From Spiroplasma culicicola AES-1 (lineage in GTDB: Bacteria; Bacillota_I; Bacilli_A; Mycoplasmatales; Mycoplasmataceae), in contig NZ_CP006681.1 of assembly GCF_000565175.1 (NCBI RefSeq), forward strand, positions 62,001-126,000: DNA of 64,000 nt, written 5' to 3'. Below, one piece after another: positions 20,134-46,888 of this stretch. Positions within the stretch are counted from its first letter, which is position 1. Every line of letters starts with the position of its first letter. Below the pieces are notes generated by a model, which saw only the letters and a program-made list of their open reading frames with translations, was not told where the DNA came from and made no database searches. A program made the position numbers and the translations under genes.

Positions 20134-21063
20134 ATGAAAAAATTAACAGTTGAAAAAATAAAAAATAAATTTGCTTTAAATATTTTGTCTGGTTTTCAAA
20201 GCTTGGATAATATAATTGAAGTTTATGGACTAAATAGAGCTGGTCTTGAATTGACAGGATATTATGAAGATGGTCAAAAATCTCATAGACTAATCTTAAT
20301 GTCAACAAAAGAATATAACTACATCATGAACTATGATGAAGAAGAAAGAAAAAAGAGATATAAAAATTTACTTTCAAAAAACATACCAGCTGTTATTGTA
20401 ACTGAAAAGTTTATTGATAAAATTTTTTTTGAAGTTGGAAAAGAATTAGACTTTCCAATTTTACAAACCAACTATGAATCTACAAGTGACTTTACAAAAG
20501 ATGTACTTGATTTAATGGATGATTACTTTGCACCAAGTACAGAAATGCACGCTTCATTTATGAATATATTTGGTAAGGGAGTAATTATTATTGGAGAATC
20601 AGGTATTGGTAAATCAGAATTAGCAATGGATCTTGTAAAATCAAACCACTTATTTGTGGGAGATGATCGTATTGTAGTTGCTAAAAAATCTGGTCAACTT
20701 TATGGAAGAAGTCACGAGATTCTAAAAAACTTAGTTGAAGTTAGAGGGATTGGAATTATTGATATTGCCAAAACTAATGGATATAAAGTTATTATGGATG
20801 AATCAACAATTGACATGGTAATTGAATTGTCAATTTTTAAGAAAAATGGTGTTGATGACTCAGACAGACTAGGACAAGGTTTTAATACTTATTCAATTTT
20901 GGGAACAGAAGTTCCATATATGAAAATTCCTGTGTCGTCTGGACGAAATATTCAAAATATTATTGAAACAGCTGTTTCAAAATTAAAAATAATTCAAAGT
21001 GGATTATATAAAGATGATGCAACTTTATTAACAGAGAGAGCGATGGAGTTCAGCGATGATTAA
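20134..21063 (+). CDS. hprK: HPr kinase/phosphorylase
   Basis: 309-residue bifunctional enzyme that phosphorylates and dephosphorylates Ser46 of HPr, linking sugar flux to PTS activity. Walker A GESGIGKS is at 154-161, preceded by the catalytic-site MHASF (His139), followed by DDRIVVAK, LVEVRGIGIID and PVSSGRNIQNIIE, all family landmarks. The ATG at 20134 is chosen over upstream in-frame codons because GTGAGG precedes it and the -10 box lies inside any longer reading. Its partner HPr is encoded at 61998-62261. lgt1 overlaps the stop. Confidence 0.95.
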   Translation: MKKLTVEKIKNKFALNILSGFQSLDNIIEVYGLNRAGLELTGYYEDGQKSHRLILMSTKEYNYIMNYDEEERKKRYKNLLSKNIPAVIVTEKFIDKIFFEVGKELDFPILQTNYESTSDFTKDVLDLMDDYFAPSTEMHASFMNIFGKGVIIIGESGIGKSELAMDLVKSNHLFVGDDRIVVAKKSGQLYGRSHEILKNLVEVRGIGIIDIAKTNGYKVIMDESTIDMVIELSIFKKNGVDDSDRLGQGFNTYSILGTEVPYMKIPVSSGRNIQNIIETAVSKLKIIQSGLYKDDATLLTERAMEFSDD

Positions 21064-22438
21064 TTTTTTAGCAACAGATAATCCAATCTATGATGCTGAA
21101 GCTGATTGATTAAGTTTTATGTATCCAATTCTTTTAACAATTGGAGCATTTTTAGTAATTGCAGCTTCAACAACTCAATTGGTAATGCGCAAAATTCCTT
21201 TAAAAGATTTTATGAATGCAATTTATATTGTTATTCCCTTAGGAGTTTTGGGTGGATCTATCTTTGGTAAATTGGGAACGGGAGTTCCTTTTTATGAAAT
21301 ATTTTATATTTGAGAACCAGGAATGAGTTTCTTTGGTGCTTTTGTAGCTGGTTTTGCTGGGGGATTTGCTTGATTGTGATCTCGTAAAGGCAATACTAAA
21401 ATTTCAATTTGAACTTATGCAGATTGTATTGTTCCAAATGTTTTATTAGGACAATCAATTGGTAGATGAGGAAACTTGTTTAATCACGAAATTATGGGAA
21501 AAGCAACTGATATTGAAAAATGAAAGTGATTACCTGATTGAATGTGACAAAGATTTTTCTATTATATTGATCCATCAAATCCATATGATCAAAATGGTAA
21601 TCCTATTTTTATTCCATTAGAATATCGTGAACCATTATTTTTATATGAATCAATTGCTACTTTAATGGCTTGAGTTTTAATTGTTTTTATTATTCCACTT
21701 ATTTTTAAAGCAATTAGTAAAAAACCATGACAAATTGCACCATTAACATTTCCAGTTAATAAAGCAATCGCATTTGATGATATTCAAAATTTAACAACTT
21801 ATATTGAAATTTATTATAAATCAGTTGAATCAGCTAATGGTGAAGAACTTTATTATATGTCAAAAAGACAAGCATGATTAAAAGCGTATTTTGCTTATGA
21901 AGCTGATTTAAAACAAGCAGAAATTTTACAAGAGCAGATTGATTTACATAAACAATCATGGGAAAAAAATAAGGAAAAATATTTGAGTTCTAAATATAAA
22001 TTAAATGAAAAAATTGAACTATTAAACACAAAATTAAAGAAAGAGCAGATTGATAAAAAACAATATAAACAAGAAATAAAAATATTAAAATCGGAATTTA
22101 AACAGGCAACTGCAAGTTTAATTAAAAATAAATCAAGATTTACAAATTGGTTAACTTTAGATTCTAGTGAATTGTATAAATTGAATAATCCTCAAAATTA
22201 TAAAGTGATGCATTCTGGTGTAATGGCTTCAACTTACTTTGTAATTTATTGTATTATTAGAATAATACTTGATTCATTTAGAAGCAATTATGAATTAGCT
22301 TTTAAATGAAGTCCAGTTATGAATTACATTTCAATCTCTTTAATGTTATTATTAGGAATATTGATTTTAATCTGTGCTCAATGAATAGCACCAAAAAAAT
22401 GGAGAGAAGAAGGTTGACTATATGAAAAATCATATTAA
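21056..22438 (+). CDS. lgt: Prolipoprotein diacylglyceryl transferase, divergent copy with coiled-coil insertion
   Basis: 460 residues against about 270 for ordinary Lgt, which moves diacylglycerol onto the lipobox Cys of prolipoproteins at the membrane. The core motif IGRWGNLFNHE is present (Arg137). However, the position holding the conserved His in WEPGMSIHGA of the second copy is Phe here (SFFGAF, residue 93), and the late R-x-x-x-E motif reads RIILDSFR with Asp. Between about residues 235 and 400 lies a long charged insertion, likely a coiled coil (KLNEKIELLNTKLKKEQIDK). It overlaps hprK by 8 bases and trxB by 17. It may be an altered or inactive paralogue. Confidence 0.85.
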
Positions 22439-40461: not shown

Positions 40462-41994
40462 GTGATAAAAGATAATAATATTATTGAAATGAAAAACATT
40501 TTAATGGTTTTCAATAAAAAAATTATTGCCAATGATGATGTTAATTTTTCTGTAAAAGAAGGAGAAATTCATGCATTAATGGGTGAAAATGGAGCGGGTA
40601 AATCAACATTAATGTCAATTTTATTTGGAATATATAATCCTACAAAGGGAACAATTAAAATTCGCGGAAAAGAAGAAGTAATTACAAGCCCCATTAAAGC
40701 AAATAAATTAGGAATTGGAATGGTCCATCAGCATTTTAAAATGGTTGATATTTTTCCTTTATGGAGAAATATTTCATTAGGTTCTGAAGAAACTATTGGA
40801 AAAACTATTATCAATTCAAAAAAAATAAAAGAAGATATAACAGAAATTATGGAAAAATATAATTTAAATGTTGATCTAAATATAAAAGCAGAAAATGCAA
40901 CAGTTGGAATGAAACAACGTGCTGAAATTTTAAAAGTCTTATATCAAGGAAATGAAATTTTAGTCTTTGATGAACCAACAGCTGTGTTAACTCCTCAGGA
41001 AATAGATGGTTTCTTAGAAGTTTTATTAGAGTTGCAGAGAAACGGAAAAACAATTATTTTAATTACTCATAAACTACAAGAAATTAAAAAAGTTGCTAAC
41101 ACTGCGACAGTTTTAAGAAGAGGAAAATCTATTGGAACATATGATGTTGCTAAAACTTCTGTTGAGCAATTATCTGAAGCAATGGTTGGAAGAAAACTTG
41201 TAGAAATTAAAAATAATTATGATACACCTTCTAATGAAGTAGCATTAGAAATTAAAAATCTTTCTGCAACTAAATATGGTTTTAGAAATATTGATGCATT
41301 AAATGATGTTAGTTTTAATGTAAAAAAAGGTGAAATAGTTGCAATCGCTGGAGTTGAGGGAAATGGACAATTAGAATTGGCAAATGCAATTTCTGGAATG
41401 GTTCATGCTCATACTGGTGAAATAATTTTAAATGGAAAAAGTATTACTAAAGATAGCGTGTCAAAAAGATTTGTTGAACATAAGATGTCACATATTCCAG
41501 AAGACAGACATAAATATGGCTTAGCTTTAGATTGAAACTTAATCAATAATGCTGCATTTGAAGATATTGATACACCAGCTTTCTCATACAAAGGTTTAAT
41601 GAGAAAAGGAAAAATACAACAGCATGCACAAGAGATTATTGAAAAATATGATGTTAGAAATGCAGATTTTGGTTTTGCAATAGCAAGACAACTATCTGGT
41701 GGAAATCAACAAAAAATGATAGTTGGTAGAGAATTTTCAAGGGATGCAGATTTCCATTTAATCTTTCAACCAACAAGAGGACTTGACGTTGGATCAATTG
41801 AATTTATCCACTCTCAAATTCTTAATTTAAAATCTGAAGGAAAAGCAATTTTATTAATTTCATATGAGTTATCTGAAATTATGCAACTTGCTGACAGAAT
41901 TATTGTTATAAATGCAGGAAATATAATTGGTGAACTTCCTGGAAATAAAGCAGATCGAAATCAAATAGGTAGAATGATGATGGGGGCAGAATAA
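40462..41994 (+). CDS. nupO: Nucleoside ABC transporter, tandem ATPase subunit
   Basis: 510 residues with two ABC domains. The first has Walker A GENGAGKST at 41-49, the Q-loop region VHQHFKMVDIFPLWRN, ATVGMKQRAEILK in place of LSGGQ, and Walker B ILVFDEPTAVLTP. The second has GVEGNGQLEL instead of a true Walker A, signature LSGGNQQKMIVGRE and Walker B LIFQPTRGLDVGS, as is usual for NupO/RbsA-type proteins. Start GTG at 40462, 9 bases after GAGGGG. TGA at 41533 is Trp. Its stop overlaps the start of the permease gene. Confidence 0.92.
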
Positions 41995-44306
41995 TGAAAT
42001 TTAAACTAAAAACATGAGTTAGAAATATGAAGTTGAATGCTCAATTAAATTCCCCAGAAATTAAAAAGACTGCTTCATTTTTTAAAACAAGTGTAATTTC
42101 AATTCTTGTTGGAACAATTTTAACAATGCTTTTAATTGCGGGACTTGGAGCTAATCCAATTGCTTTCTTTATAAAATCATTTGATGTTGTATTTACAAGA
42201 GATGTTAACTTACAAAATGCATTTTCATGATTTGCAGTCTATGGATTATTTGCAATTGGTCTTGCAATTGGTTTTAAAGTTGGACTATTTAATATGTCTG
42301 GTTCTGGACAAGCAATTCTTTCTATGGGTATTACTGGATTAATGTTAATTTCATTATTTGGAAATACTCAAGTGGAAATTAATAAAGCTGGAAGTTGAGT
42401 AATAATTTTGATTTTTATTGTTATGGTAACAATGTCAATGTTGCTTTCATCAATTACTGGAATATTGAAAGTATTTTTCAATATCCATGAAGTTGCAACT
42501 TCAATTTTATTAAACTGAACAGTTTGATATTTAATGAAATGAGCCTTTGGTTTAGAAGGATTTATTTCTTCTAGTCCAAGAATACCAACTGAGTGAATAG
42601 CACTTGCGGGTATTAAATGATTAATACCGATTATATTAATGACATTAGTATTTGTTGCTACATGATTTATTCTAACATTTACAACTTTAGGTTATAAATT
42701 TAAACTAGTTGGAACACAAAAAGATGCAGCGCACTATGTTGGTATTAATTACAAAAAATATATAATTAGTGCAACTGCTATACAGGGATTTTGTATAGGA
42801 ATTGGTTCATTTGTGTATTGATGTGCAATCAAAGGGCAATATAGTTTAGGTAATGATATTATTCCTACAATTGGATTTGATGCAATTGCAATTAGTTTAA
42901 TTGCTTTTAATAATATTTTAGGAATATTACCAATTTCATTCTTATGAGCAATTTTAACTGTAGGAATGCCTGTTGCTGTAACTTCATTTAATGAATTAGG
43001 AAGAGAAATTGCACCATTAATTTTTGGTTTCATAGTATATGCTTCAACATTTGCTTCATTATTTGCAAGATTGCAACCAATGAAATGAATAAGATTTAGC
43101 ATATATTACTTTAGAGATATTCCTACTCAAATTGAAATTAAAAATATTAACAAACAAATTAAGGATATAAAACAAGAAATTAAAAATATTAATAGACGTA
43201 ATTTTGAAAATCATTTACAATTAAAAGCATTGGTATCTGAAATTGAAAAAAATATTGAAGATATCAAAGACTTAAAATTTGAATTAAATAATACTAATAA
43301 ACTTGATCCAACTAACGAATCAAAGATCAAAGAGCTTAAAGATAATTTCAGTAAACTTGTTGAAACAAATAAAAGATTGAGTGAACAATTTGAACATTCT
43401 AAAAAAGAAATTATTATTGTTTTAAATAGACATATAAAACAATTAAAAGGAGATATTCAATATCTTAAAGATTCAGGATCTGAAAAATACTTTAAATCAA
43501 GTTATTATTCAATAAAATCTTCATTTAAATTTAAAACAAAAAGAAATGCGTGAGATCTATTAAATCCTGCAGTTAAAGATTTAAATGCAATTGAAGAAGA
43601 AAAAATTAATATACTACTTGAAATAAAAAGATATAAAAAAGCAAAATTCAATTCGGAATTAAAATTTATTAAAGAAGTAAAAGCAAAATATAAATTAGAT
43701 TTAAAACAATTAAAAACAGAATATCAATTAAATATTAAAAAAATAGCAAATGAAATAAAAAGTATTAAAAAAGAAGAATTAGAAAATAAAGATGCACAAC
43801 TTGAAGTTCTTAGATTAAAAATAGTTGAATTAACTAGTGAATATAATCAAAAAATAGATTCACTAAGTAATGACTTAAATCAAAAATTAGTAATTTCTGA
43901 TAATCAAAGAATTAAATTTGCAAAACAAGATGAAATTGATAGAGAAAATAAAATTGTTAGACTTGCACAATTGCATAAAGATTTTGAAGTTTGAAAAGAA
44001 AAAGAACAAGTTTTAAATCAAAAATGAGCTGTCAAAATTGCTAATTTAAAAGAAACAAATGTTCAATTAATGAAGAAAAAAGAAGAAAATTGAATTTTAG
44101 CAAAAACAGAATTAATTTCATTAGAAAATAATATTAAAGTATCGATTGAAAATACTAATAATCAAATTAAAATGAATTTAGAAAATGAAACAAATGAGCA
44201 AAGAATTTTAGACTTAAAACTTGAAAACAAAGAATTTATTGTCAATCAAAAGGCAATGAGATATGAAAAAATCTTAGAATTGGGTGAGAAATATGGATGT
44301 AATTAG
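41994..44306 (+). CDS. nupP: Nucleoside ABC transporter permease with giant coiled-coil tail
   Basis: 770 residues against about 350-370 for the family. Residues 1 to about 375 form the permease with roughly eight or nine spans (GLFAIGLAIGFKVGLFNMSGSGQ, NIHEVATSILLNWT, AGI... and GTQKDAAHYVGINYKKYIISATAIQG). From about residue 380 to the stop the sequence is almost entirely charged and polar (ETNKRLSEQFEHSKKEIIIV, KKIANEIKSIKKEELENKD, ENETNEQRILDLKLENKEF), heptad-like and free of membrane spans, so a cytoplasmic coiled coil of about 390 residues is predicted. The frame is continuous with the permease and runs into the nupQ start, with no sign of a broken gene. Confidence 0.88.
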
Positions 44307-45216
44307 TTTATTTCAATATACAGCTGAATTCTTTGTAGTAATTTCATTAGCAGCTCTTGCTGGAATGATAGCTGAAAGAGCTGGAGTTGTAAATATTGCA
44401 ATTGAAGGTTTCATGACAATGGGTGCGTTATTATTTGCTATATTAGGAAATTTAACATATTCCCAAGATAAAAATTGAATGCAATTAATTTGATTTGTAG
44501 TAATCTTTATAGCTGGAATGTTAATGTCATTAATGCACTCATTTGTAGCCATTAGATTGAAATGTGATCAGATTGTTTCGGGTACTGCTATTAATCTATT
44601 TATGCAAGGTTTAGCATTATTTATAGTAACTGCTAAATTAGTTGGAAATGATGATACATTTATTTATGGAAAATATACAAATATGTCAATAGATTCAGGC
44701 CATATATTAAGTAGTTATTTAATAATTACAATATTAGTAACTTTAATATTGGGATTCTATTTTACATTTACTAGAACTGGAAATAGACATATTTCTGCTG
44801 GAGAAAATCCAAATGCATTAGATGCAGTTGGAATTTCAGTAATTAAATATAGATATCTAGCAACAGCTATATCAGGGGGGATTGCCGCAATTGCTGGTGT
44901 ATTCTTTATAATAGTTGTTAAAGCCTCAACTTTTTATGGAAGTGTTGATGGATTTGGATTTATTGGACTGGCATTAATGATTATTGGGCAATGAAGAGTA
45001 AAATTCATAACACTGTTCTCATTATTGTTTGCATTTGTATTTGCTTTTGTAAGAATTGCGGGTGTAAGTTCAGGAATGCCAGAATTTATTTCTAAAAACA
45101 ATATCTTATTAAAAGCGTTACCATTTATTCTATCTCTGGTAGCAATGGTTATTATTTCTAAATGAAGTAGACCTCCTGCTGCATCAGGAAAACATTTTGA
45201 TAAATCAAAACGTTAA
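44293..45216 (+). CDS. nupQ: Nucleoside ABC transporter permease, second subunit
   Basis: 307-residue permease with about eight spans. EFFVVISLAALAGMIAERAGVVNIAIEGFMTMGALL near residue 11 and the late SAGENPNALDAVGISVIKYRYLATAISGG are characteristic of the NupQ/YufQ type. Pairs with the 41994 permease and the tandem ATPase. ATG at 44293 is preferred (GGGTGAG just upstream); it overlaps the preceding stop by 14 bases. Four TGA are Trp. A terminator follows, separating it from the phosphorylase genes. Confidence 0.92.
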
Positions 45217-45289: not shown

Positions 45290-46096
45290 ATGAAAAAAAT
45301 TGAAGAAATAGTAAATTATATTAACAAAGAATTTGATCAACCAATTGATATAGCAATGATTTTAGGAAGTGGTTTGGCAACTTTAACAGAAGAGTTTGAA
45401 GTAATTAAAGAAATTAGTTACATCGATATTCCTCACTTTAAAGCAAGTGAAGTTGTTGGTCATGCTTCAAAATTAGTATTTGCAAAGCATAACAATAAAA
45501 ACATTTTATTTTTTAAAGGAAGATTTCATTACTATGAAGGTTATGAAATTGATGAAGTAGTTTTGCCAGTTAGAGTTGTAGCCCAATTAAAAGTTAAAAA
45601 CTTAATTGTGACAAATGCTTGTGGGGGAGTTGCTGACTTTTTAAATCCAGGTGATTTAATGTTGATTAATGATCACATTGGTCTATTTTGTCCTTCACCA
45701 CTAAGAGGGAAAAATTATGATAACTTTGGAACAAGATTTCCAGATATGAGTCAAGCATATGATAAAAACTTACAAACTTTAGCCTTAACTTGTGCAAAAG
45801 ATTTAAGTATTGATTTAAAACAAGGAGTTTATGCATACTTTAAAGGACCAATGTATGAAACACCAGCAGAAATTAGAGCATATAAAGCTTTAGGAAGTGA
45901 TGCTGTTGGAATGTCTACTGTTCCTGAAGTTATTGTGGCTCACCATGCAGGAATTAAAGTATTGGGAATTAGTTTAATTACTAATAAAGCAGCTGGACTT
46001 GGGGGAAATTTAAATCATCAAGAAGTAATTGAAGTTGCTGGACAATCTGAAGTTAAATTTAAAAAACTTGTTAAAGAAATTATTGAGAGAATTTAA
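45290..46096 (+). CDS. punA: Purine nucleoside phosphorylase, trimeric type (PNP-I)
   Basis: 268-residue enzyme splitting purine (deoxy)nucleosides with phosphate. MILGSGLATLTEEF near residue 23, FKGRFHYYEGY near 77, NACGGVADFLNPGDLMLINDHI near 107 and YFKGPMYETPAEIRAYKALGSDAVGMSTVPEVIVA near 184 define the trimeric family, guanosine/inosine preferring. Late TNKAAG followed by an Asn-His pair (NLNHQEV). No Trp in the protein. AAAGAGG precedes the ATG. It processes the nucleosides imported by the transporter encoded just upstream. Confidence 0.93.
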   Translation: MKKIEEIVNYINKEFDQPIDIAMILGSGLATLTEEFEVIKEISYIDIPHFKASEVVGHASKLVFAKHNNKNILFFKGRFHYYEGYEIDEVVLPVRVVAQLKVKNLIVTNACGGVADFLNPGDLMLINDHIGLFCPSPLRGKNYDNFGTRFPDMSQAYDKNLQTLALTCAKDLSIDLKQGVYAYFKGPMYETPAEIRAYKALGSDAVGMSTVPEVIVAHHAGIKVLGISLITNKAAGLGGNLNHQEVIEVAGQSEVKFKKLVKEIIERI

Positions 46097-46177: not shown

Positions 46178-46888
46178 ATGACACCACATATTAGTGCAAA
46201 AAAAGAAGATATTGCAAAAGTTGTACTTATGCCAGGAGATCCACTTAGAGCTAAAAAAATAGCAGAAACATATTTAACAGATGTTAAATTAGTAAATGAA
46301 GTTAGAAATATGTTCATGTATACAGGAATGTATAATGGTAAAAAAGTAACCATTGCAGGAAGTGGAATGGGATGTCCAAGTATTGGAATTTATTCATATG
46401 AACTATACAAATTCTATGATGTAAACCATATTATTAGAATTGGATCTGCTGGAAGTTATAAAGAAGGAATTAATGTATATGATGTGTATAACGTTAAAGA
46501 AGCTTTTGGAGAAAGTGACTTTGCAAAAATAGCTGCTAATATTGATTCAAAAATTATTCCAGCGGGGGAAAAATTATTTGATTTAATTGAAGCAACAGCA
46601 CAAGAAAAAAATATTAAAACACACAAAGGAATAGCACATTCATCTGATGTTTTTTATCGTTATGAAGATTCACTTGAATTTGCAAAGAAAAATAATTTAG
46701 ACGTAGTTGAAATGGAATCATTTGCTTTATTTGCAAATGCAATTGCTACAAATAAACAAGCTGCTTGTTTATTAACAATTTCAGATAGTTTTATTACAAA
46801 AGAAGTAACAACTGCTGAAGAAAGACAAAACAACTTTATGACAATGGTTGAATTAGCTCTTGATACAGTTGTAAAAGTAGCAGACTAA
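46178..46888 (+). CDS. deoD: Purine nucleoside phosphorylase, hexameric type (DeoD)
   Basis: 236-residue PNP-II. MTPHISAKKEDIAKVVLMPGDPLRAKKIAETYL is the standard start with the phosphate-binding GDPLRAK, GSGMGCPSIGIYSYELYKFYDV near 63, RIGSAGSYKEG near 87, and VEMESFALFANA near 179 plus TISDSFIT near 203. This form typically accepts adenosine as well as 6-oxopurines, complementing the trimeric enzyme upstream. AAAGGAGAC precedes the ATG. Its stop lies in the terminator loop. Confidence 0.95.
   Translation: MTPHISAKKEDIAKVVLMPGDPLRAKKIAETYLTDVKLVNEVRNMFMYTGMYNGKKVTIAGSGMGCPSIGIYSYELYKFYDVNHIIRIGSAGSYKEGINVYDVYNVKEAFGESDFAKIAANIDSKIIPAGEKLFDLIEATAQEKNIKTHKGIAHSSDVFYRYEDSLEFAKKNNLDVVEMESFALFANAIATNKQAACLLTISDSFITKEVTTAEERQNNFMTMVELALDTVVKVAD

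Follow-up and report, generated by a model that had tools for sequence, protein, structure and literature searches.

A long, predicted coiled-coil tail on the NupP-type permease of a putative Mollicute nucleoside importer

The window analysed here, a stretch of 64,000 nt from the genome of Spiroplasma culicicola AES-1, contains an operon for an ABC importer, with all of its genes on the forward strand. The first gene (P0005, 39038–40384) encodes the probable substrate-binding lipoprotein, an assignment based on its position and on the start of the protein, which we take to be lipoprotein-like. For this protein, a candidate for the PnrA/BMP type, Pfam yielded no match at E ≤ 0.1, although the neighbours match clearly, and the sole NCBIfam match is a 30-residue signal-peptide stretch far below the cut-off. 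It is followed by nupO (40462–41994, GTG start), which encodes an ATPase with two ABC domains (ABC_tran, two stretches) and has a B6 ABC ATPase as its closest NCBIfam model, under the cut-off of that model. Two permease genes come next, nupP (41994–44306) and nupQ (44293–45216); the latter encodes a tail-less protein of 307 aa from its ATG (BPD_transp_2, E = 1.9e-32). Downstream, there are genes for a purine-nucleoside phosphorylase of the inosine/guanosine type (45290–46096; NF006054 and TIGR01700 above cut-off) and for a DeoD-type purine-nucleoside phosphorylase (46178–46888; NF004489 and TIGR00107 above cut-off). The nearest NCBIfam models of the transporter proteins bear the names of B6 transporters, all far below cut-off. 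The neighbouring phosphorylases and the published Mollicute orthologues, such as the M. agalactiae locus in the available text of PMC12892991, point to nucleosides as the substrate. On this basis, the operon would encode a Mollicute nucleoside ABC importer, with nupP as the probable gene for its NupP-type subunit.

Homologues of the ATPase and of NupQ are present at 18 of 18 loci of relatives and a homologue of P0005 at 16 of them, and phosphorylase genes adjoin the nup operon at just 5 of the 18. In M. bovis (L193), the homologue of P0005 is on the opposite strand; p48 is likewise placed on the opposite strand in the available text of the mBio paper (PMC12892991). Two genomes carry two tailed copies of nupP each, with tails of 194 and 263 aa in one (G046; L032, L059) and of 472 and 472 aa in the other (G057; L047, L051).

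The nupP gene is a single open frame of 770 codons in genetic code 4, in which 16 TGA codons are read as Trp. The first-pass annotation had described this frame as a permease with a tail that exceeds it in length, and indeed the 372 residues of the permease domain (41994–43109) are followed by 398 residues of tail. Residues 73–346 match Pfam BPD_transp_2 (E = 8.3e-30; 104.3 bits, compared with a cut-off of 26.8), and the sole further Pfam match listed falls far below its cut-off. The permease part of the AlphaFold model resembles the PsaBC permease 7kyp (Foldseek probability 1.00, TMt 0.58, E = 3.4e-3); Foldseek of the whole model gave nothing useful beyond this match. The chain does not end shortly after the last TM helix: the hydrophilic tail (residues 373–770) starts directly after that segment, and no meaningful Pfam, NCBIfam or PDB sequence match was found for residues ~373–770 (best PDB E-value 0.23). 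The nupP protein with its tail is a variant of the BPD_transp_2/NupP-type permease and not a non-member.

The tail had also been described as coiled-coil-like, and this was borne out by a COILS-type score that was calibrated against shuffles. In the tail, 203 of the 398 residues score above p 0.5, compared with a mean of 60 ± 37 and a maximum of 148 in 200 composition shuffles, that is, the tail has a heptad pattern beyond its composition. None of the residues 1–372 reaches this score, nor does any residue of NupQ. A simpler Fourier test for a periodicity of 3.4–3.7 residues was not significant on its own (5.3, compared with 3.4 ± 1.2 and a shuffle maximum of 8.1). The tail carries a net positive charge (81 K/R versus 66 D/E). 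Positive residues come after the last TM segment, and RbsC-like permeases have cytoplasmic C-termini; both are consistent with a tail that probably lies on the cytoplasmic side. AlphaFold, which the first-pass annotation had proposed as a check, predicted a helical tail, with no more than moderate confidence, both for the window's NupP, from a 16-row alignment, and for that of Mesoplasma grammopterae (L185). For the former, the pLDDT is about 39–82 per 10-residue block, with a helix break in a poorly defined stretch (pLDDT < 50) at residues 487–516.

Predicted coiled coil is widespread among related tails. We counted coiled-coil residues in 98 tails with a length of 60 aa or more, from which identical tails had been removed beforehand, although some stem from near-identical genomes (e.g., L104 and L105). 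At least one coiled-coil stretch is predicted in 86 of the 98 tails and none in the other 12. Relative to its own shuffles, the score has a z-value above 2 in 70 tails and above 3 in 51, leaving 28 at or below 2. A TM-like stretch was found in none of the 98 tails.

In the predicted structure, a first helical, coiled-coil-like arm (residues 373–494, 43110–43475) and a second one (residues 531–762, 43584–44279) are separated by a joint (residues ~495–530, 43476–43583). A shared element, about 48 aa long (SIKGLKxxY...FxxLDxxV in Mesoplasma), occurs in the tails of several genera, and in the 246 aa tail of M. grammopterae the helix break predicted by AlphaFold, at 120–126, lies inside this element. 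An iterated joint HMM matches 51 of the 98 tails, in two families, and misses 47, among them the tail of the window. None of 1,960 shuffled tails was matched at a sequence E-value ≤ 0.01; under less strict settings, the best domain among the shuffled tails had E = 0.004. Across the 60 genomes of the family, every match at E ≤ 1e-5 lies inside nupP, and only four weak matches (E = 0.0035 to 0.038) lie elsewhere. The joint is located at a median of 87 aa past the permease.

The tail of the window was nevertheless counted as joint-bearing, based on four observations. MAFFT aligns its residues ~499–528 under the joint element of M. grammopterae, the helix break coincides with this region, and the joint contains an island (KRxxWDLLNPAVKELN) that the window shares with the two relatives nearest to it. 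In addition, profile comparisons of the tail of this trio with ten other family groups all scored higher than all 20 column-shuffled controls, with g11, a group of the own family, doing so barely. Homology of the trio tail to the tails of other families was unsupported, as f5b and three f7 groups failed to beat the shuffles and f5a and f3 beat them only marginally. A symmetric hairpin was set aside, as the lengths of the two arms correlate negatively (rho −0.46). Two helical arms around a conserved joint are likewise a feature of SMC/Rad50 proteins, but the arm lengths of NupP are unmatched, and no SMC model match was found in the tail with Pfam or NCBIfam.

We then determined tail lengths on the frames in fetched sequence stretches. 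The permease was matched in 60 of 60 genomes of the family, with tails of 194–539 aa in the 59 genomes that were read directly; the sixtieth (G021) is covered by the locus L190 (345 aa), which lies on a contig of equal length. Throughout the order, 251 genomes match the permease, 191 of them outside of the family, and all 57 of these 191 that were opened are tailed. In 37 of the 57, the tails comprise 89–562 aa. The other 20 had been picked for short listed frames, in a search for a tail-less nupP; 19 of them have tails of 144–321 aa, and the twentieth (L294), in which the script split the domain, encodes a protein of 616 aa. At 15 named Mollicute loci (Spiroplasma, Mesoplasma, Williamsoniiplasma, Acholeplasma multilocale, Ca. 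Mycoplasma mahonii, Mycoplasmopsis bovis and M. agalactiae), the tails have 205–539 aa. The first-pass annotation had suggested looking for the tail in other Entomoplasmatales; it is present there, but not confined to them, as it was found in every genome of the order that was opened.

Outside of the order, the permeases measured are short. At seven of seven loci of a first set the protein ends 11–56 aa past the domain, and in a second set, with a complete domain at 62 of 65 loci, the median is 32 aa and the maximum is 93 aa, with four loci over 60 aa. Together, the 69 loci of the two sets, which may overlap in part, end 11–93 aa after the domain. In a class-level search, frames outside of the order had at most 489 aa among the matches listed, in which the frame lengths are shortened. 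In these wall-less bacteria, the tail is therefore a feature of the whole order as far as it was examined and not peculiar to this genome; both its structure and its distribution are well supported. NupP/NupQ-type importers such as Bacillus NupNOPQ, JCVI-syn3A Rns and the P48-associated importers of M. agalactiae and M. bovis agree with the present case in the permease domain and in an operon of a (here probable) lipoprotein, an ATPase and two permeases, and the nucleoside phosphorylases adjoining the operon here are a further point of agreement; what distinguishes the present case is a long coiled-coil tail that is absent at the 69 loci measured outside of the order. The JCVI-syn3A genes 0008–0011 are named as a nucleoside importer in the available text of PMC6609329.

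The sequence of the tail drifts fast. Values of dN/dS were computed for 26 pairs, of which 14 are close (tail dS of 0.05–0.9 and tail identity of at least 0.59). In these, dN/dS is 0.12–0.39 for the tail versus 0.02–0.31 for the permease, that is, in most close pairs several-fold higher for the tail, yet below 1. The closest pair of all (tail dS 0.02) has a tail dN/dS of 0.58, three pairs with dS of at least 1.15 have 0.14–0.16, and seven pairs of lower tail identity, the window's among them, have 0.47–0.84; the last pair stems from the outgroup and has no tail. The tail of the window is 36–38% identical to those of the two relatives nearest to it, and dN/dS within this trio is 0.65–0.84 at a dS of 0.74–0.92. 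Selection on the tail is purifying, albeit relaxed.

These results are best explained by a stalk at the C-terminus of the NupP-type subunit that is both genuine and old. On the cytoplasmic side, such a stalk would consist of a helical arm, the joint and a second helical arm. As NupQ has no stalk, each importer would carry just one, provided that the assembly is the usual NupP-NupQ-NupO. The stalk could reach past the ATPase domains as an arm for protein-protein contacts, and it may connect importers with one another, through self-association of the coiled coils, or with a soluble protein such as an enzyme of nucleoside salvage. We favour this reading of the tail as a contact stalk of the Mollicute nucleoside importer, linking importers mutually or to a partner, albeit with slightly less than even confidence. 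The first-pass annotation had suggested docking or a cytoskeletal tether; docking or self-association may apply, but no partner was found. A bolder form of the contact reading, which we consider conceivable but rather doubtful, is that an undescribed module arose a single time at the root of the recoded Mollicutes and made the importer a membrane-anchored scaffold. A jointed coiled-coil arm, one per importer, would then cluster importers or keep salvage enzymes close to the point of entry, and might also signal to the cytoplasm in which state the nucleoside-binding lipoprotein is. The two phosphorylase genes downstream of the operon make a hold on salvage enzymes attractive, but such an adjacency was seen at only the 5 of 18 loci mentioned above. 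Most Mollicutes cannot make nucleotides themselves. If the scaffold reading is true, the stalk would characterise a whole lineage of minimal cells and would have been missed since annotation stops at the permease domain.

The strongest rival to a contact arm is an arm that regulates its own ATPase, with the tail folding back onto NupO or sensing ionic strength or nucleotides and thereby gating import. C-terminal regulation is known for some other transporters, for instance for ProP with its coiled coil, OpuA with a pair of CBS domains and MetN with a C2 domain. ProP, an osmosensory transporter, shares with NupP a cytoplasmic C-terminal coiled coil, but has the MFS fold and a much shorter coil. 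It would suit a regulatory role that one of the two permeases is tailed, that the tail begins right after the last TM segment, and that among the genomes of the order that were opened the presence of the tail is universal and its length free. However, lengths from 89 to 562 aa suit a fixed intramolecular contact poorly, and no ligand-binding domain was recognised in the tail (in Pfam and NCBIfam nothing, CBS and ACT/C2 included, exceeds its cut-off there, and the PDB sequence search was without a significant match). Altogether, regulation of the own ATPase appears unlikely.

It is improbable that the tail is a weakly constrained spacer that has no specific partner, was accreted once and is kept since it does no harm or does no more than make the importer soluble. 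The fast drift and the large changes in length would be expected of such a spacer. However, Mollicutes keep very few genes, yet the tail was retained in every genome of the order that was opened (none tail-less among 60 of the family and 57 others) despite genome reduction and was absent at the loci measured outside, which implies a function in a system on which these cells depend. The dN/dS values of close pairs well below 1, the coiled-coil pattern beyond composition and the conserved joint also argue against a mere spacer.

Cytoskeletal links often involve long coiled coils, and several MreB genes are present in the genome of the window and in other Spiroplasma-like genomes, so that the tail might be a tether to MreB or to the fibril. 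However, the tail is not restricted to MreB-bearing genomes: in 16 of 30 genomes scanned, the only matches to the MreB model are DnaK-sized (called DnaK by frame length), and all 16 are tailed. Fibril protein, to our knowledge, is restricted to spiroplasmas, which also counts against a tether. As a general explanation, the cytoskeletal half of the first-pass proposal is thus weakened, and we regard it as quite improbable.

The tail might also matter mainly at the level of the gene, by carrying the ribosome-binding site of nupQ and coupling nupQ translation to the completion of nupP. The start of nupQ lies −40 to +30 nt from the stop codon of the first permease gene at 101 of 105 loci, with an overlap at 67 of them, and GGAGG-like sites are found within the last tail codons at many loci. 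In the window, the stop codon of nupP (44304–44306) lies within the nupQ frame, which starts with ATG at 44293 (overlap of 14 bp), so that the last tail codons (44280–44306) are also the upstream region of nupQ. Conserved tail ends (LGEKYG/EVxxKYG) are explained by the fact that they encode this ribosome-binding site; a docking peptide in this position was therefore dropped as the poorer explanation. However, a few codons suffice for coupling, not hundreds, and the tail-less outgroup loci (L109, L110, L111 and L148) have equal nupQ spacing, which makes a role solely at the gene level very improbable. There is virtually no room for two separate proteins, a frameshift or an assembly artefact, the last two of which the first-pass annotation had already disfavoured from the overlap with nupQ: no point in favour was found, the same single frame recurs throughout the relatives opened, none of which has a split frame or a separate start for the tail, and none of the ten in-frame ATG, GTG or TTG codons after 42960 in the window gene has an upstream Shine-Dalgarno-like match of at least 4 nt.

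Published transposon insertions bear on the orthologous locus of M. bovis RM16. According to the available text of a 2025 mBio paper (PMC12892991), insertions at this locus led to resistance to the acquisition of a conjugative element; the resistance was complete for an insertion at 96.9% of the first permease gene (FWK06_000100) and, for two insertions in the next gene, intermediate at 31.4% and complete at 73.0%. The positions given there imply a length of ~976 bp for the second gene, compared with 978 bp for the NupQ frame of M. bovis L193, of which NupP has 676 aa and a tail of 271 aa. The first insertion is calculated to lie about 63 bp from the end of a ~2.0 kb gene (last ~3%) and, by this arithmetic and the gene order rather than by sequence, would fall into the nupP tail. 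As the cause of the resistance, loss of the tail is no more likely than a polar effect on the coupled nupQ. When the second permease of M. agalactiae was disrupted, nucleoside analogues were no longer toxic, but the element was still acquired (available text of PMC12892991). As far as its text was available, the open-licence literature on coiled-coil tails of Mollicute transporters and on the locus names held no description of the nupP tail that we found. A coiled-coil survey of 22 proteomes including M. genitalium lacks the term 'ABC transporter' in the available main text (PMC1322226), and the available text of PMC12838404 treats a different nucleoside transporter of M. bovis.

A cytoplasmic, coiled-coil-like C-terminal tail was also observed on a fructose-type PTS EIIABC protein of the same genome (49685–52174), with a sequence unrelated to that of the nupP tail. 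It has ~170 aa, of which 97 are predicted coiled-coil residues (shuffle mean 18, maximum 94), and at least 25 other places in the family align beyond residue 780 of this protein. Nine PTS EIIC proteins of the genome (L278–L284, L286 and L287, with L282 being that of the window) extend 168–220 aa past the last TM-like segment. A coiled coil is predicted in each of the nine tails, most of which are alike, and none is like the nupP joint. The joint was discarded as a module common to PTS tails, as no nupP-joint match below E = 0.2 was obtained in the nine. In a near relative, a fructose PTS gene (G045:C2:101888-103728) is interrupted by TAA. A further permease of the genome, of the BPD_transp_1 type (L267, C1:167462-168022), has a frame that runs 488 aa past its last TM-like segment and off the stretch; it may be a permease fused to a binding protein, as in PotCD. 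Finally, the prolipoprotein diacylglyceryl transferase Lgt encoded in the window (21032–22435) contains a predicted coiled coil of ~80 residues (frame residues 288–369).
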